DNA from: Arctopsyche grandis
Taxonomy: Eukaryota; Arthropoda; Insecta; Trichoptera; Hydropsychidae
Length of the DNA: 64,000 bases
Assembly: GCF_051622035.1 (NCBI RefSeq)
Contig: NC_135356.1
Location: 372,001 to 436,000, forward strand
Direction of reading: 5' to 3'
The position numbers and the translations under genes are program-made. Of this stretch, positions 27,671 through 63,760 are shown piece by piece. Position 1 is the stretch's first letter; each line of letters begins with the position of its first letter. A model generated the notes under the pieces. The model made no database searches, was not told the origin of the DNA, and saw only the letters and a list, made by a program, of their open reading frames with translations.

Positions 27671-28760
27671 AAAGCTATTTATTTATTTATTTTTATTTTA
27701 TTTATAGAAAAATCAACAGACAACGGGATTTACATAGATATGTATAAAAAAACAAATAGTAAATATAGTATAATATATATGTAAAATCCGAGTCAAATTA
27801 CAGATTTTTACAAAAAATATAAAAAAAAAATGAAAAAGATAAATATAAGGAAATCAAATTAAAAAGTAAAGAATAAAGGCATGACAAAATATGTAGAACA
27901 TTGCATAATTAAACTATAGTATTAAAATATTGGGAAAAGGTTATAAAATAGAATATAAGAAGAAATTGAAATTTACAAATATAAAACAAATGAAAAAGGT
28001 AAATACAAAATAAACAAATGAAAAGGAAAATAATGAAAGCTATAATATGATTAAATAGCACATTACATAACTAAACTAAAGTATAAAAATATTGGAAATA
28101 TTGGAAAAATAGAATAGGAGAGGATATGAATCAATCGGTCAAGATTCTCTTGATGTTAGACCTGAATTGATGTAGGGAAATACCAAATAGATCAATCTCA
28201 TTCAGCTCTCCGTTAAACATACGATAAACGCGCTGCAGATAAGAATATTTTTGGGAATTATTATTGAAAGGATCAAGTGAAAAGAGTGCAACGCGTCTAG
28301 AGTACCGTACTGGGATTCTGAAATTAACCTTATTCAGTAAATCAGAACAATCAAGGAAACCATTTGAGCTTAAAGAAGAATATAGCATCAGTATGTCGTC
28401 GCCTGACAGAAAGATTGTTAAAAGAAAGGATTTTTAAAATGTCGGAAACAGTAGAATGGGTATAGGTAGGAAAAAGGTAGCGTAAGGATTTAATAAATTT
28501 AAGTTGAACTTTCTCAATACAATTAATATGGGATAAATAAAAAGGTAATTGAGGCAAATTCAAGGTGAGACCTTACAAAGGAAAAATAAAGTAATTTAAG
28601 TACATACATACATGCTTTGTTGGTAATAAAAGAAATATGTTCAGAGAAATCTAGTTTATTATTGAGTATTACACCAAGATCCTTAATAGAAGATGACGTG
28701 TTAAGGATTGAATGATTTACATAATTGATAGTGATTGTTTTCACACTCATTTGCATCAGA
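27671..28760 (-). mobile_element. LINE, 5'-truncated, left-arm copy
   Basis: Minus-strand frames contain SIKDLGVILNNKLDFSEHI and LNCIEKVQLKFIKSLRYLF, the C-terminal RT/thumb part of a CR1/Jockey-type LINE; the 3' tail is the TTTATTTATTTATTT tract at 27671-27715. Compared with the right-arm copy (62722-63760) it lacks about 45 bases near 28605 and has further small indels that break its frame. The tail is the outer edge of the large palindrome. Confidence 0.8.
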
Positions 28761-28761
28761 T

Positions 28762-29480
28762 TGTTACGGGGACGAGTAGGAGATGGTATAGAATAGTCAC
28801 AGATTTCATAAAATGATTATATTCTTTAAATAGCAGTAAATATAAACGAGATTAATTTTCCAATTTGTATTACAAGTTACTAGTCTCGAAGTGCTACCAC
28901 AAGTTACTAGTTAGAAAGTTTTATCGCAAGTGAGGTTCAATAGATCTAACATGAGTATTTATACAAAAAATAATGATAAGTTTTAACCAATGACATCATT
29001 TTGGTAAATAACAAAGTGATTAAGATACAGAGCAACATCCGTGTGTAAGACAGTTTTAGTATTTGATTTATGTATTATCGAGACATTATTGAGTAGATAC
29101 ACAAATAATCATAAAGATAAATAGTGATAATAATATTTGAGGGTTTACACGTGTCGTGAGACAAAATGCAGCTATAGCAATAAAGATTATTTAAAGTAAT
29201 ACTTTGGATTTCAACAGGTCATTGACTGTGTCGTCTAATATAACAATCGTGTTAGAAACTCGTATAAATTATAATAGATAAGAGTTAAGTAGATAGGATT
29301 GAACAGAATATGTAACTGTAGAGTCCGGGAGCAACAAAGATATTGAAAGTCTCATAAATAATGAGAGATAACTTTAAGAGAAAACATCATAAGTAGTTAA
29401 AAATTAAACGGATGTTCAAACTTAAGGTTAAAGAGTATTATACATAAGTATATACAAAGGCTGTAAGATCATACCACATA
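28762..29480 (-). mobile_element. Solo LTR-like fossil, left arm
   Basis: Ends TGTTACGGGGACGAGTAGGA on the left (its 3' end on the minus strand). About 700 bases by comparison with the inner LTR at 41 kb; the far edge is uncertain. No internal region. Mirror at 62000-62719. Confidence 0.5.
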
Positions 29481-29599
29481 ACAAGATATACTTGATGCAT
29501 TTTTATCAAACATACACACGCATGTTGAAAACTTGTTGGATAATTGAGCGTCGCATTCGAAAAGTTAGTGGTAAGTTGCGGTTCACTTGAGGAATGCGT

Positions 29600-30065
29600 A
29601 TCTTTGAGGAGACGAAAGACACAGTCGTCATTGATTAATTGAACCAACCGTTTAATTGTGTAATTGCGAGATAAATGCCGTATTGATATATCGAAACGTC
29701 ATCTAATGAAATGTTAGTGTAAATGCTCGAGCAGCCGCTTAGGGGCGCCACTAGTGAAGCAAGCCGATCAGAGCGACAGCGTGATTGTAGGCCAGTCCTC
29801 ACACGCACGCTCATTAATGCTTGCGCAGATACCGCAAAATTGGGTCCCACTGGCCTCCATGATTTTAAACAAATGTCACATTTGTGTGGTTTAATCCCAG
29901 AATGTAATTTTTTATGTGTCTTGAGGGTAGATTTTTGAGTAAATGATTTTAAACAAATTTCACACTTGTATGACTTTTCCGCCGTGTGAGATCTCAAATG
30001 TCTGACAAGTGTATATTTATGAATAAATGATTAAAAACAAATATTACATTAGAACAGCTTCTCTC
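29600..30065 (-). pseudogene. C2H2 zinc-finger part of ZAD gene A, left outer copy (decayed)
   Basis: Minus strand from 30065: HTGEKLF then a stop where the inner copy has Lys, and a frameshift before the next finger; then HTAEKSYKCEICLKSF and IKPHKCDICLKS, after which the reading leaves the zinc-finger pattern (WRPVGPNFAV from about 29875). So two fingers plus a partial remain. The break is shared with the mirror copy at 61416-61846, so it predates the large palindrome. Confidence 0.75.
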
Positions 30066-30087
30066 CAGTGTGTGATCTTTTGTGTAA

Positions 30088-30668
30088 TGGTGCTTACGGA
30101 CTAAACCAACGACGATTTTGGGCCAACTTTTTTAATCAGCAGGATAAAACCAGTAGCGTACAAAATATTGAAATAAAAATTAAATTAAAAAATTGAAATT
30201 AAATATCAAAATTAAGCTAAAGAGCGAGATTGAGCTAAAATTAGATCATCGTTGATGTTTTGAATTACGACGATACGCATTTAAAACCAGAGAAATATTA
30301 TAATTTCTCTGATAACGAGCGAAAAAAAATCTTGATATAATTTTTTAAAGTCGTCACGATATGTTACTGTATTTCGACGTCGATGATCGATAAAAAAAAT
30401 AATTCATAAAAAAACGCGGTGTCGGTTGTCGGTGATTTGTCAAAGGGTTTTTTTTTCTTTCGTCGAAATAAAATTAATAATCACACATTATCCAATAAAT
30501 TTTACCTCTGAAATTATTTAATTACTTGATTTATTACGACGAGAGAAACAATTGAATTTTGATATTTAATTTCAATTTTTAAATTTAATTTTTATTTCGA
30601 TATTTTGTACGCTACTGGTTTTAAAAGTTGGCCTGTGGGCCGTTCGTTGGCTTGGTGCGTACGCACCA
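30088..30668 (-). mobile_element. Harbinger-like MITE between ZAD and finger exons, left
   Basis: 581 bases with ends TGGTGCGTACGCACCAAG and TGGTGCTTACGGACTAAA (inverted), flanked by TTA/TAA, the target duplication of PIF/Harbinger. The inner gene A copies at 39.70 and 52.35 kb show the empty site GTGTTACAC. No transposase. Relatives, truncated: 32138-32350 and 38520-38700. Confidence 0.85.
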
Positions 30669-30747
30669 TAACACGAGTTCGGATTTATTGGGAAATGGTT
30701 TTAAACTAATTTCAGTATTTTTTCGGTGAATTGTTGGTAGTGAAGGC

Positions 30748-31148
30748 TCATCGTTCCAACAAAAATTCTTCAGTCTTGATCTTCAAGCCATCGTCTAGCT
30801 TCAGTTGAGACGTTTCGTGGCTTCGAAGACAAGCTTTTCGAAAGGCGATCAACGATTCCAGATCGGTTTTACACGGCAGACACACCGCGTCTGGCAACCC
30901 ATCGCCTCTTCTAACCTGCAAGATGAAATGAAAAAAAAGTAGGATTGAGCGGTGAGAAGAGTTTGGTCCACAATAGTTGTAACCTGTAACCTGTAACCAG
31001 CACCGACCTGAATTTGACAGTAGGTCCGAATGTTTTGCTCCAGACGCTCTGGATGAAGATCGCTCTGGAAGATGGAAACGGCAGACTCGGCCGGAGCTGG
31101 TCCAAGACAAAGCCTGCACTCCATCGTCCCTGCACTCACCGTCTCCAT
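30748..31148 (-). CDS. ZAD-domain protein, gene A, left outer copy
   Basis: Two exons, 31148-31008 and 30915-30748, with a 92-base GT-AG intron; 102 residues. Start METVSAGTMECRLCL; a second in-frame ATG is eight codons on. The CRLC pair in exon 1 and CLPC pair in exon 2 are the four zinc ligands of the ZAD fold, an insect dimerisation domain found at the N-terminus of C2H2 regulators. The frame ends at TGA just after EEFLLER, one base out of phase with the downstream fingers, so only the ZAD can be made. Here the fingers are also cut off by a MITE. Identical in translation to the other three copies. Could be a pseudogene or a ZAD-only protein. Confidence 0.6.
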
Positions 31149-31282
31149 CGTGACAGCAACCAGACGACTCGACTTCGCCTCGCTATTTTTTTTTGGTCTA
31201 AATTTGGCACTAGTTATACCAGGGAAATATTAGGCAACAAATTATTTGGTTGCTTTATAATTCCAAAAGTGGTCTGTAAAAC

Positions 31283-31500
31283 GGTTCGGTGATTACTAGT
31301 CAAATGTGAACCAGTCACAGGACAACCGGTCACACTAAAACTGGTCACGATAAAACTGGTCACACCCTAAAATCGTGTTTACGTGTGACCAGTTTTCTCG
31401 TGACCAGTTTTAGTGTGACGGGTGATCACGTGTGACCGATCTAGAGCGACCGGTTGTCCTGTGACTGGTTCACATATGACTAGTAGTCCGTTTACCCTGT
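31283..31500. mobile_element. Foldback element with CTGGTCAC motif array, left outer
   Basis: Ends share ACTAGTCA.ATGTGAACCAG and its complement. Between them GTCAC or its complement occurs nine times, often as ACTGGTCAC, spaced about 15 bases and inverted about the centre. It starts about 135 bases upstream of the ZAD start codon at 31148. Confidence 0.8.
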
Positions 31501-31685
31501 AAAACAATGAAAAATTTATCAGTTATTAATTATAAACTTGATCAGTAACTTATTCTAAATAATCAGTAGAATATAATAAACGATCAGTAATGTATTCATT
31601 TTTGTTCAGTAAATAATTATTTAATAATAAAATATCAAGTATCAAGTATACATATTTACATATATACTCGATACTTTATAATATA

Positions 31686-31898
31686 TTGTGGCGGCTCGCT
31701 ATACGACATGGTCGAGTTTGGTCACCTTCGTGCGAGTGGGGACCAACTCGATTATGTTCGGAGCTAGCCACCTCACTCTGCCTTCAGCTGTCATAAATAA
31801 AACACATTTGCATTCAACATGCCAGTCGTCTCATTCGTTCATCCCCCATAACTGGAAGGTGACCAAACTCGACCATGTCGTATAGCGCGCCGCCACAA
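31686..31898. mobile_element. TTGTGGCGGC MITE, full length, left
   Basis: 213 bases; inverted ends of about 45 bases (TTGTGGCGGCTCGCTATACG, complement at the right), flanked by TATA on both sides. Family unknown. Absent from the inner gene A flank at 38.7 kb. Confidence 0.8.
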
Positions 31899-32137
31899 TA
31901 TACGTGATAATTGCAATATATACTTGATACTTTATATTGTAATATTTATATAGAAAAGAAATAAAATAAAAACACAAGCTAATAGCTTTTTCATTTCTTT
32001 ATTGAAATAATGCAGTAAAACAAACAAAAAAACAATTTCGTTATTGCAATTAAATATTTACACAATAAAACATAAGCGAAGCGAATTTGAAAGTCGAGTT
32101 AAATTGCCGAGCACATAGCGAGTGACGTGCGCGTCCT

Positions 32138-32620
32138 GGTGCGTACGCACCGAGCCAACGAACGGCCCACAGGCCAACTTTTAAAACCAGTAGCGTACAA
32201 AATATTGAAATAAAAATTAAATTAAATATCAAAATTAAGCTAAAGAGCGAGATTGAGCTGAAACGAGATCATCGTTGATGTGTTGAATTACGACAATACG
32301 CATTTACAACTAGAGAAATATTATAATTTCTCTGCTTACGAGCGAAAAAAAATCTTGTTATTGTTTCTTAAAAGGGATCCCAATCATCAATTTCTTCCAG
32401 TATCTCTGCAGTAGTAAAATTGTATAATATGAATAAGAGAAATTGCGTTTACATATATCATATTCCAGGGAAAAAAAATCAAAGTCGACGGAGTCGTATA
32501 TGACCCTTTGGGATAATGACACATATTTTTTTCCAGAGAATGCAAATAAGCAATAAGTCCTACTGTATTAGAAACAAAGATAAATAAAAAACTTACGTAT
32601 GTTTTCTATTCGACATATCT
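32138..32620 (-). repeat. Harbinger-like end plus exon-like block, inverted partner of 38225-38700
   Basis: Begins TGGTGCGTACGCACCGAG like the MITE at 30.1 kb and runs into a block shared with 38225-38520 that, on the minus strand, reads MSNRKHT, a GTAAGT donor, and later TTGCAG/CTGCAG then EILEEIDDWDPF and a stop. This may be the first exons of an unknown gene or transposase. One fold of the nested inverted pair inside the left arm. Confidence 0.5.
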
Positions 32621-33214
32621 GCACCTAGTAAAGCGTTCGATGTTGTTCCGTCAAAACTCCAAAAGGAACTGATTTAATTTCGTGTGACTTTCTTAAAATT
32701 CATCACCAACATCTAACCAAGCGTAACGAAAGATTTTACGACCGGCCTGAGTGATCCCTTTATTTTAAAACGCAAAAGTGTAAAATGCCGTGAACGACCG
32801 CTTTGGCATACATCGTGTAAGTTCGGTTCGGTGATTACTAGTCAAATGTAAACCTGAAATGTGAAAAAACTGGTCACGAGAAAACTTGTCACACCCAAAA
32901 ATTTAAAATTGGTCACACAAACAAAAATATTCTCAAATACTTTTTATTTACGAAATTTTTATTATTATCGACTAGACATATGTTCGAGCCAAAGCCCCTC
33001 GTGGCCGTGGCCGTTGTTTGTGGTCTTCGCCAAGAGTTCGCGGGCATTTTGGCAATCGCTTTTGCGTTTTGACAATCACTTTGACAAATCACAAATCTTA
33101 ATTCACCTATAAATGTAAATGTACAGCGGGGAGGTCTATGAAAACACTGATTGTGTACTTACACTAAGAGGATCCTTTATTTATGTTCACTTGTAACAAT
33201 AGTAATTATTAGAG
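32620..33214. other. Non-coding, with partial CTGGTCAC foldback
   Basis: 32830-32920 carries GGTTCGGTGATTACTAGTCA and two GGTCAC/TGTCAC units, one end of the foldback family. No gene. Confidence 0.45.
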
Positions 33215-33310
33215 GTAGGATAGTCACAGTGCTATCCATTGTTCGGCATACCTTTAACAATGCATTTACAACCTTTGAACAATACACGGCCCCCTCAGGC
33301 TCCGGTGACT
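33215..33310 (-). repeat. Short dispersed repeat (also 1050-1140, 58170-58280)
   Basis: GCACTGTGACTATCCTACCT and GGAGCCTGAGGGGGCCGTGT blocks are shared with 1050-1140, inverted. Confidence 0.7.
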
Positions 33311-33600
33311 AGTAATTATATGTAAAAAAGAAGGTCGTTTTCGTTTCTCAGCTTCGGACGTTGCCATATTATAATATATATATATTCAATTGTAAATAGG
33401 TTTTTGAGCTCTTTTTCCTATTAGGCTGTGCATTAAAATTAGAATAATATAATACTATGATTACTAACCAAATAAAATAAAACAAAATTGTAAAATAGAA
33501 AATGATCAGTAGATCAGTAGCTATTAAAATAGATATAATATGTATTGTGAACATAATTTCGTAATAATAAAAAGTATTTCAAGCAATCAAACCAAATAAT

Positions 33601-34276
33601 ATATATTCAAGAATATGTTTATGTATAATGTGTTGAAAACATAATAAATCTTTACTTATTTATTACTGTGCATAAAAGGTTTTTTTTTAATTTTGTCCCT
33701 GTAATTTAGATTTAGGTACATATATATTTTAGAATTTTTATGTTATGCATTTGAAAGCAGCAAAATCGTAAACTTTGTGTTTGTTTTTAACAATACGGAT
33801 AATCGTGGTTCTATTGTACATACATATTACTTACTTATCAATACATTGGTAATTAAATCGGTGATAGTCAGCAACTCGAAACAATATCACTTGTACTATT
33901 CCATATTTTTCACTTCTCATATTCAACAATTACTCAATTTACTCATATTCAACAATTAGCAATGTTTTATATATGTATGTACGAAACATGAAAATATAGG
34001 TCTGGTGCATGGATCTTATCTCAAAGCTACGAACTCAATTGCTCCCGATGAAATATAAGCGATCAGGCTCGATGGCTGCAGTTTTTGACGGATTAGTGTA
34101 TGTATGTATGTGGGGGCACCGAGGAGTATCCCAATGATTCACTGAATGTTGTTGAACGCCAATTTTTTTTTATATTACATATATTCAAGAATATGTTTAT
34201 GTATAATGTGTTGAAAACATAATAAATCTTTACTTATTTATTACTGTGCATAAAAGGTTTTTTTTTTAATTTTGTC
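33601..34276 (+). repeat. 579-base left-arm-only segment between 97-base direct repeats
   Basis: Copies at 33601-33697 and 34179-34276 (ATATTCAAGAATATGTTTAT...) flank unique DNA. The right arm has a single copy (57784-57880) and lacks the middle, as expected for a deletion by recombination between the repeats. Confidence 0.85.
33995..34165 (+). pseudogene. Single Kelch-repeat exon relic
   Basis: Reads LLPMKYKRSGSMAAVFDGLV, then in another frame NDSLNVVERQF: the turn and SVERY-like strand of one Kelch blade. Frame is broken between the two. It does not match any exon of the 21-kb gene closely by eye. Present only in the left arm. Confidence 0.6.
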
Positions 34277-34340
34277 TATATGTTGTTATATGTTTCGTTC
34301 ACATTTTTTTTTACAGATTACACGTTGCAGTTCTTTATAC

Positions 34341-34640
34341 CAGTGCTTCCCAAATTGGGGGTCACGACCCCCTGGGGAGCCGTATGATTTCTCGTGGAGA
34401 AAATGTATATATATATTTAAGGAAATATTTCCCAAACTTGAATGAGGATGAAAGGAGCATTTGGATAAGAACACCATTTGCCAAGTCCTTAAAATATGAT
34501 CATATTACATGGACAGCCCAAGAAGAGTTGATCGATATCAGATCAGATAATTTGCTTGAAGTGGAATTTAATGTATTGTAAGTATTTCAGAAAGGAAGTA
34601 AATTTAATGGAAAGTGTTTAACTTTTGAACAAATCATTTA
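34341..34640 (+). mobile_element. hAT remnant, left arm
   Basis: Terminus CAGTGCTTCCCAAATTGGGG with GGTCACGACCCCC hairpin, then a frame with YFPNLNEDERSIWIRTPF and QEELIDIRSDNLLEVEFNVL, the hAT C-terminal motifs. Internally deleted. Mirror at 57421-57720. Confidence 0.7.
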
Positions 34641-35002
34641 ATGGCATTTCTTAATTACTAGCTCTGAAATCTGATACACAAACGTGTGAATTAAATTAAG
34701 AAAGTGTGAGACATCAACATATTTCCATTGACGAAGACATTATGAAGAAGCTGGTCGCAGCTATCGCATACATAAGCTTAATGATAAAATCGGTTAAATA
34801 TTAAAGATAATCTTCGTGGTACATACATATAATTACAACTATGTATATTTTAAAATTAAAAGATTCATGTACATATATTTATCTGATATATAAATTTTCT
34901 TCTAATTAACTAATGTACATATAATGTTCTTAAAAACCCACATTTCCACCGAAATCATTTTCGGTGCCAACTTTCACTTTGACGTATGGATTTCATATGC
35001 CA
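34641..35002. other. No gene seen; downstream of gene B
   Basis: AT-rich non-coding DNA. Confidence 0.4.
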
Positions 35003-35908
35003 TCACTGAGTGTGCCGTTTATAAATTGCCGTTGTGGATTTTGGCGTCTTCGAGTTTGTGTCACCGAGTTTACGCCTGCCCGGTTTTTCCCCAGTATGCG
35101 TTCTTTGGTGTTTCTTGAGGGTGAATTTGAGAGCAAATGATTTTAAACAAATATCACAATTATATGGTTTTTCCCCAGTATGAGTTCTTGTGTGTGTCGT
35201 GAGCCTCTTTTTTTGAGGAAATGATTTTAAGCAAATGTCACATTTATATGGATTTATCCCGGTATGAGTTTTAATGTGTTCAGGGAGATACTTTTTTTGA
35301 GAGTATGATTTCAAACAAATGTCACATTTATATGGTTTTTCCTCAGTATGAGTTTTTTTATGTGACGTAAGGTAGGCATTTTGAGCAAACGATTTTGAAC
35401 AAATGTTACATTTGTATGGTTTTTCCGCAGTATGAATTATTTTATGTCTCGTAAGGCAGGCTATGTGAGAAAACAATTTTGAACAAATGTCACATTTGTA
35501 TGGTTTTATTGCATTATGAGTTGCTATGTGCATTCCAAGGGAATATTTTCTAAAGAATGATTTTGAACAATAGTCACAAGCGTATTGTTTTTCCACAGCA
35601 TGAGTTTTTTTATGTTTTATAAGGCTGGCTTTATTAGTACACGATTCTAAACAAATTTCACATTTATTTGATTCTACTCCCATGTGAATTAGTTTGTGTT
35701 TTACACATCTACATTTTCGAGTGAATGATTTTAAACAAATGTCACATTGGTATGGTTTTTCCCCATGAGTTTTTTTGTGTATCGTCAGTTGTGATTTGTA
35801 AGTAAACGATTCTGAACAAATATCACATTTATATAAATTGTCCTTCATCTGATCATTGACATGGGTGTTGTTAACGTTTGGTGGCGAATTAACTAACATC
35901 AGACTCAT
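35003..35908 (-). CDS. Nine-finger C2H2 protein ORF, gene B, left arm
   Basis: 301 codons from ATG 35908 with nine consecutive C2H2 fingers (YKCDICSESF... to YNCDICLKSF...), each with Cys2 and His2 ligands, mostly joined by TGEKP-like linkers, then a basic tail (GRRKLGDTNSKTPKS). Such arrays bind DNA in the nucleus. All fingers are intact and the sequence is identical in the other arm. It overlaps the end of the ZAD exon upstream in a +1 frame, so it starts at its own ATG or is the finger part of a frame-broken ZAD gene. Confidence 0.75.
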   Translation of the reverse strand: MSLMLVNSPPNVNNTHVNDQMKDNLYKCDICSESFTYKSQLTIHKKTHGEKPYQCDICLKSFTRKCRCVKHKLIHMGVESNKCEICLESCTNKASLIKHKKTHAVEKQYACDYCSKSFFRKYSLGMHIATHNAIKPYKCDICSKLFSHIACLTRHKIIHTAEKPYKCNICSKSFAQNAYLTSHKKTHTEEKPYKCDICLKSYSQKKYLPEHIKTHTGINPYKCDICLKSFPQKKRLTTHTRTHTGEKPYNCDICLKSFALKFTLKKHQRTHTGEKPGRRKLGDTNSKTPKSTTAIYKRHTQ

Positions 35909-36765
35909 TTTCCAATATTAAATCTTCTTCTGTCTTGATATTTAGATGCCTGTTTAGCTTCAGTTTCGAAATTTCATCATTTCGAAGACAAACTTTTCGA
36001 AAACTAATGAGCAATTCCAGATTGTTGTTACAAGGACGACATATCGTATCTGGCAACTTTTCGTCTTTCTTGACCTGCAAATACGAAAGGTTTATATTAA
36101 AATTAATTCAGATGGCAAACCGGGTAATTTAACCTAACTGTTCAAATAAACCGAAAAATCCTGGTTAAAATAAGGACTGAAGCCACAATTAAAACTTTTC
36201 TAGAAACACTAATATTAAATATAAATATAATCCACAACGAAATATGTACAGTAAATTATTCCATTGCAAACTGCTTTAAAAATTTATTTCACTTCAGTAT
36301 GTAAACGTAATCGGAAATAAGTAAACTCGGAAACAAGAGTGCTAAGCGATCTTTCGTCAATATTTAAATCTCGAGATTGTGTAATTGATTGTGATTGAGT
36401 TAGACTTATTATACCTACGCTTATTAAACCAGCTGTTTATTAAACGGAATTAAAAAGTGATTACAAATTTCAACAATTTATCGATTTAATACATACATAT
36501 ATTCAATTTGGATTCTTTTCGAATATTATGGATTCCGTTTATTGTGAAATTCACGAGATCGTTAACATACATTTGTTTGGCTGGCTTTATCTTTAACATA
36601 TTGATCAGATTCACGAGGTAAATGTGAGGGTAAACGACCTGCAGCTGACAGCAGGACCAGCAAATGTGACCGAGGATTTCCATGGATGGAGACGAAAGCC
36701 TCGGCTGGACCAGAAGACAAGCAGAGTCTGCACTGCATTGGGAATTGACGCTCGATACAATTCAT
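35889..36765 (-). pseudogene. ZAD part of gene B, left arm (frame-broken)
   Basis: Exon 1 36765-36639 (MQCRLCLSSGPAEAFVSIHG, then in the next frame ICWSCCQLQ), intron of 564 bases, exon 2 36074-35889 (VKKDEKLPDTICRPCNNNLE..). The zinc-ligand pairs CRLC and CRPC are present. Exon 1 leaves phase 1 while exon 2 needs phase 0, so a small indel lies between SIHG and WSCC. Exon 2 ends ENESDVS and a stop, in a different frame from the fingers. Same state in the right arm. Confidence 0.7.
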
Positions 36766-36835
36766 CCTCTAGTGAAATTTGGTCTAAAGAACACAGCTCA
36801 AGTCGTCATGGTTCGGTGATTATTCCGCACACTTC

Positions 36836-36915
36836 ACTAAAATCCCGATCACGGAATATCTGGCACCCATACGAAATATCATACTAACGAGAGTTCGAGT
36901 GCCAGATATACAATA
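36836..36915. repeat. Short inverted repeat upstream of gene B
   Basis: ATATCTGGCAC at about 36857 pairs with GTGCCAGATAT at about 36899. It is joined to GGTTCGGTGATTA, the same end sequence that borders the foldbacks at gene A. Confidence 0.6.
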
Positions 36916-36955
36916 TCCGCGATTTTCGTGGAAAAGTAGGAAATTTCAACTTTTT

Positions 36956-38085
36956 TTTAGGCTTTTCCTCTTGTTCCTGTTGTATCCTGCTCGTGCAAAT
37001 TAAGTGAGTATGTACTGGTCTCCCTTTTGGCGCATGCAAAATACATGGCGCATGCACACTTTCTCTCAGTAGGTTGTTACCTTCTAAGTACGAAAGGTCG
37101 ATTGCGGAGATCTTGTCGTCACTAATTGAGGGGTGCGGGGGGCTTAACTAGCGGGGAATTGAAAAAAACGCCGACCGCTGCATCGTAGGGAAAAAAACCT
37201 TTTTTTTCCCAACTTCCCGCTAGTTAAACCCCCCCCCCCCCCCCCACACGTTTAGAAAAGCGGTTTATATTATAAATACCGATCATCAAATTTAAGCATA
37301 TTAACAATATAATATGAATTAGTGAATAAAATAAATTTTGATAACACCAAAACACGAAAAATTCGATTTTAGATTTATTAACTGTAGTTTAGTTTATGTT
37401 AATGAGCTAATAATTAATGGATTTAGAGTTAGAAAACTAAATTGAAAAGAATCATCGAGACAAACTTGGTGAAACAAGTGAACTTGGTCAAAAAACGTCG
37501 AGCATTTCAATTTTAGAACAAAAATGTGTGTTGACCAGTGTCCCAGTCTATAGAAACTCATTTGTGTTTTGCATATTACTTATAAATAATGAAATAATAC
37601 TTGTCGAATTAATAAAATTGACATACGATGTAAACATTATAGAAAGTAATATTCGCACTGGCAGGAAATCAAAATGCCAGCTATTGATCCGATGTCTGGT
37701 AATTTCAATACTATATATAGAATATATAGAATGTGTCCCATAAATAGAAATGTCTCGGGTTGATTTTGATCTGATTGATTGATTGAATGATCTGATTTTG
37801 TTGTTTATTTATAATCTTTTACTTATACTGTAAAACATGAACTTTTGTAAGATATGTTTAAAATATTAACCAATGCCTGAAATTTCTAAATCATCAATCA
37901 AATTATAAATCGTGATTTATTTCAACGCAGTAAGGTTTCGAAACATATTGAAGCTGTCACAAGCATACTTATGTCTGTAAATAATCATAGTAGGTACTAT
38001 AACTTTGCATCACAATAAAACATTTCGTTATGATAACATTGTTTTCTGTTTAAATATGGCGATTCGGTGATTACATCCCAAATGT
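36956..38085 (+). repeat. 1.1-kb dispersed repeat, left-arm copy
   Basis: Colinear with 5175-6330 apart from a 52-base gap near 37280 and small changes. Contains a poly-C run (37220-37237). No recognised coding region. Confidence 0.75.
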
Positions 38086-52830: not shown

Positions 52831-52956
52831 CGTGACAGCAATCAGACGACTCGACTTCGCCTCGCTATTTTTTTTTGGTCTAAATTTGGCACTAGTTATA
52901 CCAGAGAAATATTAGGCCACAAATTATTTGGTTGTTTTATAATTCCAAAAGTGGTC

Positions 52957-53186
52957 TGTAAAACGGTTCGGTGATTGCTAGTCATATGTGAACCAGTCAC
53001 AGGACAACCGGTCACGAAAAAACTGGTCACACCCTAAAATCGTTTACCAGTTTACGTGTGACCAGTTTTCTCGTGACCAGTTTTAGTGTGACCAGTTTTA
53101 GTGTGACGGGTGATCACGTGTGACCGATCTAGAGCGACCGGTTGTCCTGTGACTGGTTCACATATGACTAGTAGTCCGTTTACCCT
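52957..53186. mobile_element. Foldback element with CTGGTCAC array, right inner
   Basis: Mirror of 38874-39103. Confidence 0.8.
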
Positions 53187-53359
53187 GTAAAACAATGAAA
53201 AATTTATCAGTAATTAATTATAAACTTGATCAGTAACTTATTCTAAATAATCAGTAGAATATAATAAACGATCAGTAATGTATTCATTTTTGTTCAGTAA
53301 ATAACTGTTGTTCAGTAAAATTTAATAATAAAATATCAAGTATCAAGTATACATATTAC

Positions 53360-53974
53360 CAACTTTTAAAACCAGTAGCGTACAAAATATCGAAATAAAA
53401 ATTAAATTAAATATCAAAATTAAGCTAAAGAGCGAGATTGAGCTGAAATGAGATCATCGTTGATGTGTTGAATTACGACGATACGCATTTACAACTAGAG
53501 AAATATTATAATTTTTCTGCTTACGAGCGAAGAAAAATCTTGTTATTGTTTCTTAAAATGGATCCCAATCATCAATTTCTTCCAGTATCTCTGCAGTAGT
53601 AAAATTGTATAATATGAATAAGAGAAATTGCGTTTACATATCTCATATTCCAGGGAAAAAAAATCAAAGTCGACGGAGTCGTATATGACCCTTTGGGCTA
53701 GTGACACATATTTTTTTCCAGAGAATGCAAATAAGCAATAAGTCCTACTGTATTAGAAACATAAAGATAAATAAAAAATATGTAAAAATAAAAAACTTAC
53801 GTATGTTTTCTATTCGACATATCTGCAACTTAATATTAATTAGCAAATGCCATTTTTTACGAGATTTGGGCAGTTTTGAGCAATATTTGGGCAATTTTCC
53901 TTTGTGACGAATTTTCGTGTGACAGGACACCGCGCGAGCGATTTTTGTAGCGACGGTTAGGCTGGTAGCGATTC
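53360..53974 (-). repeat. Mirror of 38086-38700
   Basis: Harbinger-MITE fragment and exon-like MSNRKHT block, inverted. Confidence 0.6.
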
Positions 53975-55105
53975 ACATTTGGGATGTAATCACCGAATCG
54001 CCATATTTAAACAGAAAACAATGTTATCATAACGAAATGTTTTATTGTGATGCAAAGTTATAGTACCTACTATGATTATTTACAGACATAAGTATGCTTG
54101 TGACAGCTTCAATATGTTTCGAAACCTTACTGCGTTGAAATAAATCACGATTTATAATTTGATTGATGATTTAGAAATTTCAGGCATTGGTTAATATTTT
54201 AAACATATCTTACAAAAGTTCATGTTTTACAGTATAAGTAAAAGATTATAAATAAACAACAAAATCAGATCATTCAATCAATCAATCAGATCAAAATCAA
54301 CCCGAGACATTTCTATTTATGGGACACATTCTATATATTCTATATATAGTATTGAAATTACCAGACATCGGATCAATAGCTGGCATTTTGATTTCCTGCC
54401 AGTGCGAATATTACTTTCTATAATGTTTACATCGTATGTCAATTTTATTAATTCGACAAGTATTATTTCATTATTTATAAGTAATATGCAAAACACAAAT
54501 GAGTTTCTATAGACTGGGACACTGGTCAACACACATTTTTGTTCTAAAATTGAAATGCTCGACGTTTTTTGACCAAGTTCACTTGTTTCACCAAGTTTGT
54601 CTCGATGATTCTTTTCAATTTAGTTTTCTAACTCTAAATCCATTAATTATTAGCTCATTAACATAAACTAAACTACAGTTAATAAATCTAAAATCGAATT
54701 TTTCGTGTTTTGGTGTTATCAAAATTTATTTTATTCACTAATTCATATTATATTGTTAATATGCTTAAATTTGATGATCGGTATTTATAATATAAACCGC
54801 TTTTCTAAACGTGTGGGGGGGGGGGGGGGGGGTTTAACTAGCGGGAAGTTGGGAAAAAAAAGGTTTTTTTCCCTACGATGCAGCGGTCGGCGTTTTTTTC
54901 AATTCCCCGCTAGTTAAGCCCCCCGCACCCCTCAATTAGTGACGACAAGATCTCCGCAATCGACCTTTCGTACTTAGAAGGTAACAACCTACTGAGAGAA
55001 AGTGTGCATGCGCCATGTATTTTGCATGCGCCAAAAGGGAGACCAGTACATACTCACTTAATTTGCACGAGCAGGATACAACAGGAACAAGAGGAAAAGC
55101 CTAAA
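53975..55105 (-). repeat. 1.1-kb dispersed repeat, right-arm copy
   Basis: Mirror of 36956-38085, with a G run at 54815-54832. Confidence 0.75.
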
Positions 55106-55295
55106 AAAAAGTTGAAATTTCCTACTTTTCCACGAAAATCGCGGATATTGTATATCTGGCACTCGAACTCTCGTTAGTATGATATTTCGTATGGGTGCCA
55201 GATATTCCGTGATCGGGATTTTAGTGAAGTGTGCGGAATAATCACCGAACCATGACGACTTGAGCTGTGTTCTTTAGACCAAATTTCACTAGAGG

Positions 55296-56172
55296 ATGAA
55301 TTGTATCGAGCGTCAATTCCCAATGCAGTGCAGACTCTGCTTGTCTTCTGGTCCAGCCGAGGCTTTCGTCTCCATCCATGGAAATCCTCGGTCACATTTG
55401 CTGGTCCTGCTGTCAGCTGCAGGTCGTTTACCCTCACATTTACCTCGTGAATCTGATCAATATGTTAAAGATAAAGCCAGCCAAACAAATGTATGTTAAC
55501 GATCTCGTGAATTTCACAATAAACGGAATCCATAATATTCGAAAAGAATCCAAATTGAATATATGTATGTATTAAATCGATAAATTGTTGAAATTTGTAA
55601 TCACTTTTTAATTCCGTTTAATAAACAGCTGGTTTAATAAGCGTAGGTATAATAAGTCTAACTCAATCACAATCAATTACACAATCTCGAGATTTAAATA
55701 TTGACGAAAGATCGCTTAGCACTCTTGTTTCCGAGTTTACTTATTTCCGATTACGTTTACATACTGAAGTGAAATAAATTTTTAAAGCAGTTTGCAATGG
55801 AATAATTTACTGTACATATTTCGTTGTGGATTATATTTATATTTAATATTAGTGTTTCTAGAAAAGTTTTAATTGTGGCTTCAGTCCTTATTTTAACCAG
55901 GATTTTTCGGTTTATTTGAACAGTTAGGTTAAATTACCCGGTTTGCCATCTGAATTAATTTTAATATAAACCTTTCGTATTTGCAGGTCAAGAAAGACGA
56001 AAAGTTGCCAGATACGATATGTCGTCCTTGTAACAACAATCTGGAATTGCTCATTAGTTTTCGAAAAGTTTGTCTTCGAAATGATGAAATTTCGAAACTG
56101 AAGCTAAACAGGCATCTAAATATCAAGACAGAAGAAGATTTAATATTGGAAAATGAGTCTGATGTTAGTTAA
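55296..56172 (+). pseudogene. ZAD part of gene B, right arm (frame-broken)
   Basis: Exon 1 55296-55422, intron 55423-55986, exon 2 55987-56172. Same exon-1 phase mismatch as the left arm. Confidence 0.7.
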
Positions 56173-57058
56173 TTCGCCACCAAACGTTAACAACACCCAT
56201 GTCAATGATCAGATGAAGGACAATTTATATAAATGTGATATTTGTTCAGAATCGTTTACTTACAAATCACAACTGACGATACACAAAAAAACTCATGGGG
56301 AAAAACCATACCAATGTGACATTTGTTTAAAATCATTCACTCGAAAATGTAGATGTGTAAAACACAAACTAATTCACATGGGAGTAGAATCAAATAAATG
56401 TGAAATTTGTTTAGAATCGTGTACTAATAAAGCCAGCCTTATAAAACATAAAAAAACTCATGCTGTGGAAAAACAATACGCTTGTGACTATTGTTCAAAA
56501 TCATTCTTTAGAAAATATTCCCTTGGAATGCACATAGCAACTCATAATGCAATAAAACCATACAAATGTGACATTTGTTCAAAATTGTTTTCTCACATAG
56601 CCTGCCTTACGAGACATAAAATAATTCATACTGCGGAAAAACCATACAAATGTAACATTTGTTCAAAATCGTTTGCTCAAAATGCCTACCTTACGTCACA
56701 TAAAAAAACTCATACTGAGGAAAAACCATATAAATGTGACATTTGTTTGAAATCATACTCTCAAAAAAAGTATCTCCCTGAACACATTAAAACTCATACC
56801 GGGATAAATCCATATAAATGTGACATTTGCTTAAAATCATTTCCTCAAAAAAAGAGGCTCACGACACACACAAGAACTCATACTGGGGAAAAACCATATA
56901 ATTGTGATATTTGTTTAAAATCATTTGCTCTCAAATTCACCCTCAAGAAACACCAAAGAACGCATACTGGGGAAAAACCGGGCAGGCGTAAACTCGGTGA
57001 CACAAACTCGAAGACGCCAAAATCCACAACGGCAATTTATAAACGGCACACTCAGTGA
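56153..57058 (+). CDS. Nine-finger C2H2 protein ORF, gene B, right arm
   Basis: Identical in translation to 35908-35003 (301 residues, nine fingers, basic tail). The ATG lies 20 bases inside the end of the ZAD frame. Confidence 0.75.
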   Translation: MSLMLVNSPPNVNNTHVNDQMKDNLYKCDICSESFTYKSQLTIHKKTHGEKPYQCDICLKSFTRKCRCVKHKLIHMGVESNKCEICLESCTNKASLIKHKKTHAVEKQYACDYCSKSFFRKYSLGMHIATHNAIKPYKCDICSKLFSHIACLTRHKIIHTAEKPYKCNICSKSFAQNAYLTSHKKTHTEEKPYKCDICLKSYSQKKYLPEHIKTHTGINPYKCDICLKSFPQKKRLTTHTRTHTGEKPYNCDICLKSFALKFTLKKHQRTHTGEKPGRRKLGDTNSKTPKSTTAIYKRHTQ

Positions 57059-57420
57059 TGGCATATGAAATCCATACGTCAAAGTGAAAGTTGGCACCGA
57101 AAATGATTTCGGTGGAAATGTGGGTTTTTAAGAACATTATATGTACATTAGTTAATTAGAAGAAAATTTATATATCAGATAAATATATGTACATGAATCT
57201 TTTAATTTTAAAATATACATAGTTGTAATTATATGTACCACGAAGATTATCTTTAATATTTAACCGATTTTATCATTAAGCTTATGTATGCGATAGCTGC
57301 GACCAGCTTCTTCATAATGTCTTCGTCAATGGAAATATGTTGATGTCTCACACTTTCTTAATTTAATTCACACGTTTGTGTATCAGATTTCAGAGCTAGT
57401 AATTAAGAAATGCCATTAAA
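57059..57420. other. No gene seen
   Basis: Mirror of the AT-rich DNA at 34641-35002. Confidence 0.4.
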
Positions 57421-57720
57421 TGATTTGTTCAAAAGTTAAACACTTTCCATTAAATTTACTTCCTTTCTGAAATACTTACAATACATTAAATTCCACTTCA
57501 AGCAAATTATCTGATCTGATATCGATCAACTCTTCTTGGGCTGTCCATGTAATATGATCATATTTTAAGGACTTGGCAAATGGTGTTCTTATCCAAATGT
57601 TCCTTTCATCCTCATTCAAGTTTGGGAAATATTTCCTTAAATATATATATATACATTTTCTCCACGAGAAATCATACGGCTCCCCAGGGGGTCGTGACCC
57701 CCAATTTGGGAAGCACTGGT
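57421..57720 (-). mobile_element. hAT remnant, right arm
   Basis: Mirror of 34341-34640 with one or two substitutions (ERNIWIRTPF here, ERSIWIRTPF there). Confidence 0.7.
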
Positions 57721-58865
57721 ATAAAGAACTGCAACGTGTAATCTGTAAAAAAAAATGTGAACGAAACATATAACAACATATAGACAAAATTAAAAAAAAA
57801 ACCTTTTATGCACAGTAATAAATAAGTAAAGATTTATTATGTTTTCAACACATTATACATAAACATATTCTTGAATATATATTATTTGGTTTGATTGCTT
57901 GAAATGCTTTTTATTATTACGAAATTATGTTCACAATACATATTATATCTATTTTAATAGCTACTGATCTACTGATCATTTTCTATTTTACAATTTTGTT
58001 TTATTTTATTTGGTTAGTAATCATAGTATTATATTATTCTAATTTTAATGCACAGCCTAATAGGAAAAAGAGCTCAAAAACCTATTTACAATTGAATATA
58101 TATATATTATAATATGGCAACGTCCGAAGCTGAGAAACGAAAACGACCTTCTTTTTTACATATAATTACTAGTCACCGGAGCCTGAGGGGGCCGTGTATT
58201 GTTCAAAGGTTGTAAATGCATTGTTAAGGGTATGCCGAACAATGGATAGCACTGTGACTATCCTACCTCTAATAATTACTATTGTTACAAGTGAACATAA
58301 ATAAAGGATCCTCTTAGTGTAAGTACACAATCAGTGTTTTCATAGACCTCCCCGCTGTACATTTACATTTATAGGTGAATTAAGATTTGTGATTTGTCAA
58401 AGTGATTGTCAAAACGCAAAAGCGATTGCCAAAATGCCCGCGAACTCTTGGCGAAGACCACAAACAACGGCCACGGCCACGAGGGGCTTTGGCTCGAACA
58501 TATGTCTAGTCGATAATAATAAAAATTTCGTAAATAAAAAGTATTTGAGAATATTTTTGTTTGTGTGACCAATTTTAAATTTTTGGGTGTGACAAGTTTT
58601 CTCGTGACCAGTTTTTTCACATTTCAGGTTTACATTTGACTAGTAATCACCGAACCGAACTTACACGATGTATGCCAAAGCGGTCGTTCACGGCATTTTA
58701 CACTTTTGCGTTTTAAAATAAAGGGATCACTCAGGCCGGTCGTAAAATCTTTCGTTACGCTTGGTTAGATGTTGGTGATGAATTTTAAGAAAGTCACACG
58801 AAATTAAATCAGTTCCTTTTGGAGTTTTGACGGAACAACATCGAACGCTTTACTAGGTGCAGATA
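57721..58865. other. Right-arm mirror of 32.6-34.3 kb
   Basis: Single copy of the 97-base repeat at 57784-57880; the 33.2-kb dispersed repeat at 58170-58280; partial foldback end at 58560-58650. No gene. Confidence 0.5.
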
Positions 58866-59343
58866 TGTCGAATAGAAAACATACGTAAGTTTTTTATTTA
58901 TCTTTGTTTCTAATACAGTAGGACTTATTGCTTATTTGCATTCTCTGGAAAAAAATATGTGTCATTATCCCAAAGGGTCATATACGACTCCGTCGACTTT
59001 GATTTTTTTTCCCTGGAATATGATATATGTAAACGCAATTTCTCTTATTCATATTATACAATTTTACTACTGCAGAGATACTGGAAGAAATTGATGATTG
59101 GGATCCCTTTTAAGAAACAATAACAAGATTTTTTTTCGCTCGTAAGCAGAGAAATTATAATATTTCTCTAGTTGTAAATGCGTATCGTCGTAATTCAACA
59201 CATCAACGATGATCTCGTTTCAGCTCAATCTCGCTCTTTAGCTTAATTTTGATATTTAATTTAATTTTTATTTCAATATTTTGTACGCTACTGGTTTTAA
59301 AAGTTGGCCTGTGGGCCGTTCGTTGGCTCGGTGCGTACGCACC
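58866..59343 (+). repeat. Mirror of 32138-32620
   Basis: MSNRKHT exon-like block and Harbinger-like end TGCGTACGCACCA. Confidence 0.55.
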
Positions 59344-59582
59344 AGGACGCGCACGTCACTCGCTATGTGCTCGGCAATTTAACTCGACTTTCAAATTCGC
59401 TTCGCTTATGTTTTATTGTGTAAATATTTAATTGCAATAACGAAATTGTTTTTTTGTTTGTTTTACTGCATTATTTCAATAAAGAAATGAAAAAGCTATT
59501 AGCTTGTGTTTTTATTTTATTTCTTTTCTATATAAATATTACAATATAAAGTATCAAGTATATATTGCAATTATCACGTATA

Positions 59583-59795
59583 TTGTGGCGGCGCGCTATA
59601 CGACATGGTCGAGTTTGGTCACCTTCCAGTTATGGGGGATGAACGAATGAGACGACTGGCATGTTGAATGCAAATGTGTTTTATTTATGACAGCTGAAGG
59701 CAGAGTGAGGTGGCTAGCTCCGAACATAATCGAGTTGGTCCCCACTCGCACGAAGGTGACCAAACTCGACCATGTCGTATAGCGAGCCGCCACAA
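59583..59795. mobile_element. TTGTGGCGGC MITE, full length, right
   Basis: Mirror of 31686-31898, with TATA at both edges. Confidence 0.8.
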
Positions 59796-59980
59796 TATAT
59801 TATAAAGTATCGAGTATATATGTAAATATGTATACTTGATACTTGATATTTTATTATTAAATAATTATTTACTGAACAAAAATGAATACATTACTGATCG
59901 TTTATTATATTCTACTGATTATTTAGAATAAGTTACTGATCAAGTTTATAATTAATAACTGATAAATTTTTCATTGTTTT

Positions 59981-60198
59981 ACAGGGTAAACGGACTACTA
60001 GTCATATGTGAACCAGTCACAGGACAACCGGTCGCTCTAGATCGGTCACACGTGATCACCCGTCACACTAAAACTGGTCACGAGAAAACTGGTCACACGT
60101 AAACACGATTTTAGGGTGTGACCAGTTTTATCGTGACCAGTTTTAGTGTGACCGGTTGTCCTGTGACTGGTTCACATTTGACTAGTAATCACCGAACC
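59981..60198. mobile_element. Foldback element with CTGGTCAC array, right outer
   Basis: Mirror of 31283-31500; ends 135 bases before the gene A start at 60333. Confidence 0.8.
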
Positions 60199-60332
60199 GT
60201 TTTACAGACCACTTTTGGAATTATAAAGCAACCAAATAATTTGTTGCCTAATATTTCCCTGGTATAACTAGTGCCAAATTTAGACCAAAAAAAAATAGCG
60301 AGGCGAAGTCGAGTCGTCTGGTTGCTGTCACG

Positions 60333-60733
60333 ATGGAGACGGTGAGTGCAGGGACGATGGAGTGCAGGCTTTGTCTTGGACCAGCTCCGGCCGAGTCTGC
60401 CGTTTCCATCTTCCAGAGCGATCTTCATCCAGAGCGTCTGGAGCAAAACATTCGGACCTACTGTCAAATTCAGGTCGGTGCTGGTTACAGGTTACAGGTT
60501 ACAACTATTGTGGACCAAACTCTTCTCACCGCTCAATCCTACTTTTTTTTCATTTCATCTTGCAGGTTAGAAGAGGCGATGGGTTGCCAGACGCGGTGTG
60601 TCTGCCGTGTAAAACCGATCTGGAATCGTTGATCGCCTTTCGAAAAGCTTGTCTTCGAAGCCACGAAACGTCTCAACTGAAGCTAGACGATGGCTTGAAG
60701 ATCAAGACTGAAGAATTTTTGTTGGAACGATGA
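60333..60733 (+). CDS. ZAD-domain protein, gene A, right outer copy
   Basis: Exons 60333-60473 and 60566-60733; the same 102 residues as the other copies, ending at the same TGA. Confidence 0.6.
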
Positions 60734-60812
60734 GCCTTCACTACCAACAATTCACCGAAAAAATACTGAAATTAGTTTAAAACCATTTCCCAATAAATCC
60801 GAACTCGTGTTA

Positions 60813-61393
60813 TGGTGCGTACGCACCAAGCCAACGAACGGCCCACAGGCCAACTTTTAAAACCAGTAGCGTACAAAATATCGAAATAAAAATTAAATTT
60901 AAAAATTGAAATTAAATATCAAAATTCAATTGTTTCTCTCGTCGTAATAAATCAAGTAATTAAATAATTTCAGAGGTAAAATTTATTGGATAATGTGTGA
61001 TTATTAATTTTATTTCGACGAAAGAAAAAAAAACCCTTTGACAAATCACCGACAACCGACACCGCGTTTTTTTATGAATTATTTTTTTTATCGATCATCG
61101 ACGTCGAAATACAGTAACATATCGTGACGACTTTAAAAAATTATATCAAGATTTTTTTTCGCTCGTTATCAGAGAAATTATAATATTTCTCTGGTTTTAA
61201 ATGCGTATCGTCGTAATTCAAAACATCAACGATGATCTAATTTTAGCTCAATCTCGCTCTTTAGCTTAATTTTGATATTTAATTTCAATTTTTTAATTTA
61301 ATTTTTATTTCAATATTTTGTACGCTACTGGTTTTATCCTGCTGATTAAAAAAGTTGGCCCAAAATCGTCGTTGGTTTAGTCCGTAAGCACCA
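60813..61393 (+). mobile_element. Harbinger-like MITE between ZAD and finger exons, right
   Basis: 581 bases, TTA at both edges (60810-60812, 61394-61396). Mirror of 30088-30668. Confidence 0.85.
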
Positions 61394-61415
61394 TTACACA
61401 AAAGATCACACACTG

Positions 61416-61846
61416 GAGAGAAGCTGTTCTAATGTAATATTTGTTTTTAATCATTTATTCATAAATATACACTTGTCAGACATTTGAGATCTCACACGGC
61501 GGAAAAGTCATACAAGTGTGAAATTTGTTTAAAATCATTTACTCAAAAATCTACCCTCAAGACACATAAAAAATTACATTCTGGGATTAAACCACACAAA
61601 TGTGACATTTGTTTAAAATCATGGAGGCCAGTGGGACCCAATTTTGCGGTATCTGCGCAAGCATTAATGAGCGTGCGTGTGAGGACTGGCCTACAATCAC
61701 GCTGTCGCTCTGATCGGCTTGCTTCACTAGTGGCGCCCCTAAGCGGCTGCTCGAGCATTTACACTAACATTTCATTAGATGACGTTTCGATATATCAATA
61801 CGGCATTTATCTCGCAATTACACAATTAAACGGTTGGTTCAATTAA
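61416..61846 (+). pseudogene. Finger part of gene A, right outer copy (decayed)
   Basis: Mirror of 29635-30065 with the same stop after GEKLF and the same exit from the finger pattern after KCDICLKSW. Confidence 0.75.
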
Positions 61847-61999
61847 TCAATGACGACTGTGTCTTTCGTCTCCTCAAAGATACGCATTCCTCAAGTGAAC
61901 CGCAACTTACCACTAACTTTTCGAATGCGACGCTCAATTATCCAACAAGTTTTCAACATGCGTGTGTATGTTTGATAAAAATGCATCAAGTATATCTTG

Positions 62000-62719
62000 T
62001 TATGTGGTATGATCTTACAGCCTTTGTATATACTTATGTATAATACTCTTTAACCTTAAGTTTGAACATCCGTTTAATTTTTAACTACTTATGATGTTTT
62101 CTCTTAAAGTTATCTCTCATTATTTATGAGACTTTCAATATCTTTGTTGCTCCCGGACTCTACAGTTACATATTCTGTTCAATCCTATCTACTTAACTCT
62201 TATCTATTATAATTTATACGAGTTTCTAACACGATTGTTATATTAGACGACACAGTCAATGACCTGTTGAAATCCAAAGTATTACTTTAAATAATCTTTA
62301 TTGCTATAGCTGCATTTTGTCTCACGACACGTGTAAACCCTCAAATATTATTATCACTATTTATCTTTATGATTATTTGTGTATCTACTCAATAATGTCT
62401 CGATAATACATAAATCAAATACTAAAACTGTCTTACACACGGATGTTGCTCTGTATCTTAATCACTTTGTTATTTACCAAAATGATGTCATTGGTTAAAA
62501 CTTATCATTATTTTTTGTATAAATACTCATGTTAGATCTATTGAACCTCACTTGCGATAAAACTTTCTAACTAGTAACTTGTGGTAGCACTTCGAGACTA
62601 GTAACTTGTAATACAAATTGGAAAATTAATCTCGTTTATATTTACTGCTATTTAAAGAATATAATCATTTTATGAAATCTGTGACTATTCTATACCATCT
62701 CCTACTCGTCCCCGTAACA
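62000..62719 (+). mobile_element. Solo LTR-like fossil, right arm
   Basis: 3' end CTACTCGTCCCCGTAACA at 62719; 5' edge estimated. Mirror of 28762-29480. Confidence 0.5.
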
Positions 62720-62721
62720 AT

Positions 62722-63760
62722 CTGATGCAAATGAGTGTGAAAACAATCACTATCAATTATGTAAATCATTCAATCCTTAACACGTCATCTTCTATTAAGG
62801 ATCTTGGTGTAATACTCAATAATAAACTAGATTTCTCTGAACATATTTCTTTTATTACCAACAAAGCATTTAAATCTCTTGGATTCCTACTCGGCTCAAC
62901 AAAACCCTTTAATGATCCTTATGTACTAAAATTACTTTATTTTTCCTTTTTAAGGTCTCACCTTGAATTTGCCTCAATTACCTTTTTATTTATCCCATAT
63001 TAATTGTATTGAGAAAGTTCAACTTAAATTTATTAAATCCTTACGCTACCTTTTTCCTACCTATACCCATTCTACTGTTTCCGACATTTTAAAAATCCTT
63101 TCTTTTAACAATCTTTCTGTCAGGCGACGACATACTGATGCTATATTCTTCTTTAAGCTCATAAATGGTTTCCTTGATTGTTCTGATTTACTGAATAAGG
63201 TTAATTTCAGAATCCCAGTTCGGTACTCTAGACGCGTTGCACTATTTTCACTTGATCCTTTCAATACTAATTCCCAAAAATATTCTTATCTGCAGCGCGT
63301 TTATCGTACGTTTAACGGAGAGCTGAATGAGATTGATTCATTTCTTCTCCTATTCTATTTTTCCAATATTTTTATACTTTAGTTTAGTTAAGTAATGTGC
63401 TATTTAATCATATTATAGCTTTCATTCTTTTCCTTTTCATTTGTTTATTTTGTTTTTACCTTTTTCATTTGTTTTATATTTGTAAATTTCAATTTCTTCT
63501 TATATTCTATTTTATAATCTTTTCCCAATATTTTAATACTATAGTTTAATTATGCAATGTTCTACATATTTTGTCATGCCTTTATTCTTTACTTTTTGAT
63601 TTGATTTCCTTATATTTATCTTTTTCATTTTTGTAAAAATCTGTTATTTGACTCGGATGTTACATATATTATTTATTTTCTATTTGTTTTTTTATACATA
63701 TCTATGTACATCCTGTCTGTTGATTTTTCAATAAATAAAATAAAATAAATAAATAATAAA
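62722..63760 (+). mobile_element. LINE, 5'-truncated, right-arm copy
   Basis: Frames 62725-63003 and 62963-63382 give the RT C-terminal region (DLGVILNNKLDFSEHISFIT, FKSLGFLLGSTKPF, FIKSLRYLFPTYTHS). One frameshift near 63000 separates them. Tail AAATAAAATAAATAAATAA at about 63735-63755. More complete than the left copy. Confidence 0.8.

Follow-up and report, generated by a model that had tools for sequence, protein, structure and literature searches.

How do the two arms of a large palindrome come to be nearly identical along most of their length and plainly different at both ends? The question is raised by a stretch of 64,000 nucleotides from the trichopteran Arctopsyche grandis (assembly GCF_051622035.1; 475,669,232 bases in 189 contigs), in which two inverted arms carry genes of the ZAD and C2H2 zinc-finger types. 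This stretch, hereafter the window, is C2:372001-436000 (+), where C2 is contig NC_135356.1 (39,475,857 bases), and a C2 coordinate is the window position plus 372000. Judged from the assembled sequence, the locus is probably a genuine patchwork of segmental duplications, in which the cores of the left arm (L) and the right arm (R) became alike by ectopic gene conversion.

A reverse-complement alignment pairs window positions 27679-41504 with 49467-63756, and both its identity and its length are far above chance. The reverse-complement arms of about 14 kb that an earlier note had described from the window are therefore real, but their identity is uneven and their outermost 0.93 kb consists of separate insertions. 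Listed by left-arm segment, identity is 99.92% at 28612-33697, 99.70% at 34179-39887 and 99.18% at 40772-41504, and it is 98.1% at 28191-28606, 96.9% at 39938-40705 and 90.4% at 27679-28136. The changes are stepwise, with drops at 28611/28612 and 39853/39854. Between these steps lies a core for which the two-way alignment of L and R contains four substitutions and four insertions or deletions (indels) of 578, 4, 2 and 1 bases, and outside it L and R diverge by 1.2-2.9%. The larger indels previously reported between the arms (45, about 579 and about 1100 bases) are recovered at 45, 578 and 1127 bases, alongside others of 61, 27, 22, 14 and fewer bases. The 578-bp stretch is bounded by direct repeats of about 98 bp, which suggests that it was deleted from R.

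A third full copy of the arm, R2, makes it possible to weigh how this likeness arose. Aligned together, L, R and R2 give 12,830 gap-free sites, 319 of which show two states, and these group L with R in 241 cases, L with R2 in 20 and R with R2 in 58. Across the 10,412 aligned sites of the core, L and R differ at 4, whereas R2 differs from each of them at 230 (2.2%). The longest run of sites uniting L and R is 175, compared with a maximum of 44 in 10,000 shuffles. Many of these sites cluster at C2:409.8-410.8 kb, where R2 and the partial arm copy P diverge strongly. With C2:409501-411100 and a rearranged zinc finger excluded, 89 of 134 sites still group L with R and the longest run is 47 (27 at most in 10,000 shuffles), while the differences among 8,987 core sites are 4 between L and R and 78 between R2 and either arm. 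Conversion between the arms, one of the possibilities raised in the earlier note, is supported both by the grouping of the 319 sites and by the 175-site run.

The likeness ends abruptly on both sides. Left of the core, L and R differ at 24 of 816 sites, compared with 4 of 10,412 within it (p 5e-24). Right of the core they differ at 41 of 1558 (p 3e-32), or at 18 of 1472 when the rearranged finger is removed (p 2e-13 versus the core). The left end coincides with a 45-bp gap and filler found in L and not in R or R2, and the right end with the rearranged finger, which occurs in L and not in R, P or R2. Thus, a tract is alike in two paralogues and bounded by diverged flanks, and the third copy shows that the tract is not simply young DNA, as is expected of ectopic conversion. 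Because the core ends at changes confined to L, and because the flank of L pairs with that of R2, the pattern points to conversion between paralogous copies rather than to haplotypes joined head to head.

A second tract has a different distribution. In the block around gene 1 (C2:405100-409500) all three copies are alike: over 3,817 sites their pairwise comparisons give 3, 3 and 4 differences, the L-R2 pair having 3. Beside this block L and R2 differ at 54 of 4417 sites (1.2%) on one side (p 7e-12 versus 3 of 3817 in the block) and by 7.9% on the other. Since the core tract is shared by L and R and the gene 1 block is alike in all three copies, at least two exchanges are likely.

The arms belong to a larger structure. 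In a self-comparison of 264-274 kb of C2 around the window (BLAST chains), the arm repeat runs on past the window, within a block that spans about 131 kb (C2:383-515 kb), which holds L in forward orientation, R and R2 in reverse orientation, and P. L with its left flank (C2:383082-413504) pairs inverted with C2:514610-467871, the main pieces being 93.7-99.5% identical, and R with its right flank (C2:421421-440264) pairs directly with C2:467825-489172, main pieces 95.6-98.2%. Within the latter, C2:432925-439095, which includes the flank of R, matches R2 at 98.2% in direct order. P (C2:440793-446470) pairs directly with C2:419820-426782 and with C2:467825-471939. The outer edge of R2 contains about 7.8 kb (C2:481839-489619) that L lacks.

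The ends of the arms are themselves composite. The outermost 27679-28611 on the left and 62870-63756 on the right belong to the 3' end of a single retroposon family, inserted twice independently, so the shared arm proper is 28612-41504 versus 49467-62869. For the left insertion (no. 2), the empty target is present as uninterrupted gag-like sequence at C2:418452 and C2:489619, and the same filled junction recurs near C2:466550. The context of the right insertion (no. 1) differs from the left and is common to R2. At the inner end, the arm continues into one common sequence in R, P and R2 and into an inverted copy of segment A in L. This suggests that the left arm has a derived junction at either edge. 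Pfam gave no family for four of the ten frames submitted, three of them transposon-like and the other covering the first ZAD exon of gene 2; accordingly, 'gag-like', 'retroposon' and 'Tc1-like' are labels assigned by eye and from tail sequence, and for insertion no. 2 also from its empty targets.

The arm genes appear to be in decay. All three gene models examined (Table 1) contain frameshifts or stops. In gene 1, an 11-bp deletion in the first ZAD exon shifts the frame in L, R and R2 relative to relatives on C13. In R, taken to represent the three copies (its finger ORF recurs in L and R2), a 2-bp insertion separates the second ZAD half from the fingers. This zf-AD half scores 31.6 bits (cut-off 28) and the fingers lie in a different frame; gene 1 thus lacks the in-frame union of zf-AD domain and C2H2 fingers that characterizes a ZAD-ZNF gene. 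The fingers of gene 3 contain stops in L, R and R2. Genes 3 and 2 also form a nested inverted pair within each arm (window 29638-32591 / 38282-39887), about 95-97% identical.

The 301-amino-acid finger open reading frame (ORF) of gene 1 is open and, as had been claimed, identical in translation between the arms; the 295 codons compared show no difference among L, R and R2. The further claim that all shared ZAD frames are identical needs correcting for gene 2, whose zinc-finger exon differs between the arms at 39854-40007. The ratio of nonsynonymous to synonymous divergence (dN/dS) of gene 1 is 1.04, 0.88 and 0.87 against its nearer C13 relatives L035, L036 and L037, compared with 0.45-0.65 among those three, and selective constraint on gene 1 looks relaxed, though some may persist. 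With the arm genes broken and constraint apparently relaxed, copying would explain the identical ORF better than selection. The examined arm genes being degenerate by their reading frames, conversion between L and R would require no maintained gene function.

Among the 40 of 892 candidates scored, the next relatives of gene 1 (no more than 83% identical) are mostly clustered at C13:3.61-3.83 Mb, and this cluster is a possible source of the C2 copies. It is dense, with most members in one orientation (C13:3610000-3830000). Six of its loci were read: the second ZAD half is in frame with the fingers in five (L035-L039), and the first ZAD exon is open in four (L034, L035, L036 and L039). Locus L034 is broken after the ZAD, so decay is not confined to C2. 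A genome-wide search gave 989 zf-AD candidates; 150 of these were scored and each cleared the cut-off, which puts the number of matches at 150 or more. Between R and R2, arrays of C2H2 finger repeats occur at C2:452959-459419 and 465900-466403 (L020-L022). The block's one zf-AD match among the 150 listed, at C2:454398-454529, sits in a 559-amino-acid open frame, and an intact ZAD gene may therefore lie between R and R2.

One competing explanation is an assembly error that fused two haplotypes, or else one haplotype with a paralogue, head to head, which would make L and R alleles. A core identity of 99.96% would suit alleles, and the 578- and 1127-bp indels would suit polymorphic insertions or deletions. 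However, the 274 kb around the window (C2:272001-546000) contains no N, and C2 begins with 3,660 bases of TAACC repeat, which we take to be a telomere of the TTAGG type. Alleles should have matching outer flanks, but the neighbours of L and R are unlike at both ends and the outer flank of L finds its partner in that of R2, not of R. The inverted pairing of the large sides stops at about C2:383.1 and 514.6 kb, and beyond it 372-383 and 515-546 kb (one strand compared) share only matches of up to 204 bases. A join also accounts poorly for the third full copy, 2.2% away, and for divergence that steps from 0.04% to 1.2-2.9% precisely at changes found only in L. Full-length matches of two probes (gene 1, 1801 bases; non-coding arm DNA, 991 bases) occur in L, R and R2 only, and no close full-length match to either was found on another contig among the 40 of 892 and 40 of 3073 candidates scored, respectively; with that sampling, the absence of another copy applies only to close full-length copies. 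Bases 1-225 of the non-coding probe are a widespread repeat with many 93-95% matches on other chromosomes. Taken together, these observations leave the head-to-head join proposed in the earlier note poorly supported, and we regard it as improbable.

A single recent inverted duplication, with the differences at the edges added by later mutation, would also give high core identity. The same note had entertained this simple origin, but L, R, P and R2 all lie in one block, the outer 0.93 kb represents separate insertions, the inner 1.5 kb differs at 1.2-2.6%, and it is R2 that matches the outer flank of L. This history is very improbable, and if the assembly is correct the mosaic of identity already speaks against it. 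Least probable of all is an ampliconic palindrome of a sex chromosome whose genes are kept intact by conversion. The high identity of the arms and the presence of genes in them do resemble that class anatomically, but such a palindrome should hold intact genes, and those examined here carry frameshifts or stops, with the dN/dS of gene 1 near one against its three nearer relatives. A variant within the favoured explanation, whose likelihood overlaps with it, is that the core of L was written by break repair from R with template switches, making the changes at its ends scars of one event. The 45-bp gap with filler and the shuffled finger are both confined to L, and identity starts exactly there. 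On the other hand, the likeness of R to R2 shifts at the right border too, which is left unexplained if R was merely a donor, and the variant seems rather unlikely.

The preferred explanation, ectopic conversion within a segmental patchwork, can be set out as follows. A segment with ZAD-C2H2 and Kelch sequences was probably copied several times, in both orientations, to give the patchwork of about 131 kb. Conversion between the closest inverted copies, L and R, would have rewritten about 11.2 kb of one or the other, halting where L differs structurally, at the retroposon junction and at the rearranged finger. A separate exchange would have homogenised L, R and R2 over about 4.4 kb around gene 1. 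We consider it evenly balanced whether genes and transposon pieces alike were replaced in a single event in which about 11 kb passed between the inverted copies, with structural differences fixing both ends of the tract. If it did, insertions and finger rearrangements would act as borders of concerted evolution in a decaying zinc-finger family. The direction L to R is slightly favoured. At the right border the likeness of R to R2 shifts, with 19 differing columns in C2:411300-411856 and then none until 412104, and L likewise shifts toward P; because both copies change likeness there, L fits slightly better as the donor. At a rate of 2.9e-9 per site per generation, the four differences put the core exchange at about 66,000 generations (18,000-170,000), a rough figure.

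Several points weigh against this account. The shuffles assume independent sites. The open 301-amino-acid frame is a weak sign that gene 1 is still in use, and its dN/dS falls to 0.74 and 0.39 in comparisons with L038 and L039, which are more distant than the other three. The tract ends coincide with rearrangements found only in L, which may be older barriers or scars of the exchange, and error-prone repair could instead have written the core into L, in which case the direction would be the opposite. Finally, the case is built on the sequence of one assembly, although misassembly appears unlikely.

Table 1. Features of the palindrome and its surroundings, in window positions unless marked C2.
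Feature	Position	Strand	Remarks
Core tract, left copy (L)	28612..39853	+	Differs from R at 4 of the 10,412 sites aligned among L, R and R2
Core tract, right copy (R)	52207..62869	-	Without the 578 bp of left 33601-34178
578-bp stretch	33601..34178	+	Found in L and R2; R lacks it
Left core end	28606..28612	.	45-bp gap, short filler; joins insertion no. 2 to sequence of insertion no. 1
Right core end, rearranged zinc finger	39854..40007	+	Gene-3-type piece, then P-type finger; frame broken
Inner left arm	40008..41504	+	About 1-3% from R, P and R2
Inner right arm	49467..52206	-	Carries 1127 bp (~50241-51370) with retroposon-like frame; L and R2 without it
Inner junction, left arm to segment A'	41504..41505	.	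Occurs once in 274 kb
Retroposon insertion no. 2, 3' end	27679..28611	-	Within gag-like sequence ending segment B
Retroposon insertion no. 1, 3' end	62870..63756	+	Common to R2 at C2:481890-482706
Gene 1, left	35003..36768	-	ZAD exon 1 (11-bp deletion), ZAD exon 2, 301-aa C2H2 ORF in another frame; ZAD coordinates projected from right arm
Gene 1, right	55293..57058	+	Same make-up; zf-AD 55954-56169, C2H2 56144-57055
Gene 2, left	39149..40198	+	ZAD-C2H2; frame lost between ZAD and fingers, broken again in rearranged finger
Gene 2, right	51985..52911	-	ZAD-C2H2; frame lost between ZAD and fingers
Gene 3, left	29638..31229	-	Inverted gene 2 copy in same arm; coordinates projected from right arm
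Gene 3, right	60252..61843	+	Inverted gene 2 copy
Left flank	11082..27671	+	Inverted pairing with C2:514610-489619 (R2 outer flank), pieces 96.4-99.5%
Segment A	~12828-18054		In left flank
Segment B	~24638-27671		In left flank
BTB/BACK gene pieces between A and B	BTB 21315-21671, BACK 22108-22341		Pfam
Spacer	41505..49466		Inverted A copy 41505-44298, gag-like stretch, inverted B copy 46452-48788, second gag-like stretch
Kelch motif in spacer's B copy	48116-48421		Pfam

Other elements were observed in and around the block. Segment A contains an element at window 14047-15653 that is missing from the spacer copy of the segment. It has transposase-like frames between inverted ends some 400 bp long, and by eye it is Tc1-like. 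A second pair of relatives of segment A, at C2:3580381 (+) (L003) and C2:3619164 (-) (L006), lies about 39 kb apart in opposite orientation, and C2 may therefore carry a second inverted pair. On the R2 side, an insertion of the long terminal repeat (LTR) type at C2:500785-507307 (L025-L026) has two identical 1036-bp ends and AAAC at both edges; the corresponding site on the L side (near C2:391721) carries no such insertion. A transfer RNA search found none.

Highly similar inverted arms are easily mistaken for assembly errors or for sex-chromosome palindromes. Here, three full copies and a partial one in a single contig allow the rival readings to be weighed by sequence alone, and the exchange tract can be measured with both of its borders visible. 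The locus also cautions against assuming that genes are preserved wherever palindrome arms have identical ORFs. A literature search yielded no paper that we recognised as describing this locus, which is not proof that there is none.

In the human P6 palindrome, identity between arms exceeds 99.9% and conversion tracts have a mean of 2068 bp and a maximum above 9 kb (PMC3723533). Like such mammalian sex-chromosome palindromes, the A. grandis locus has large inverted repeats, high arm identity and kilobase tracts; unlike them, its block also includes direct copies, its near-identity is limited to a core and its examined genes are degenerate. Gene-bearing long inverted repeats of C. elegans are more alike than expected, which was taken as active maintenance (PMC1803023). 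The arms described here are likewise inverted, gene-bearing and unusually alike, but that work is a comparison of species, whereas ours concerns one genome with degenerate genes. Ectopic, non-allelic conversion is described for Drosophila duplicates (PMC3924832), and the present case would add another among insect duplicates, differing in a tract of about 11 kb that spans genes and transposon pieces and ends on structural differences. Drosophila ZAD-ZNF genes have multiplied in clusters through segmental duplication (PMC7655104). Those of A. grandis have similarly multiplied by duplication, but the examined C2 arm copies are broken and form nested inverted repeats, and the nearest relatives of gene 1 are chiefly on C13. 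The processes are thus known ones, and this locus is a new case of them with well-marked borders, not a new kind.

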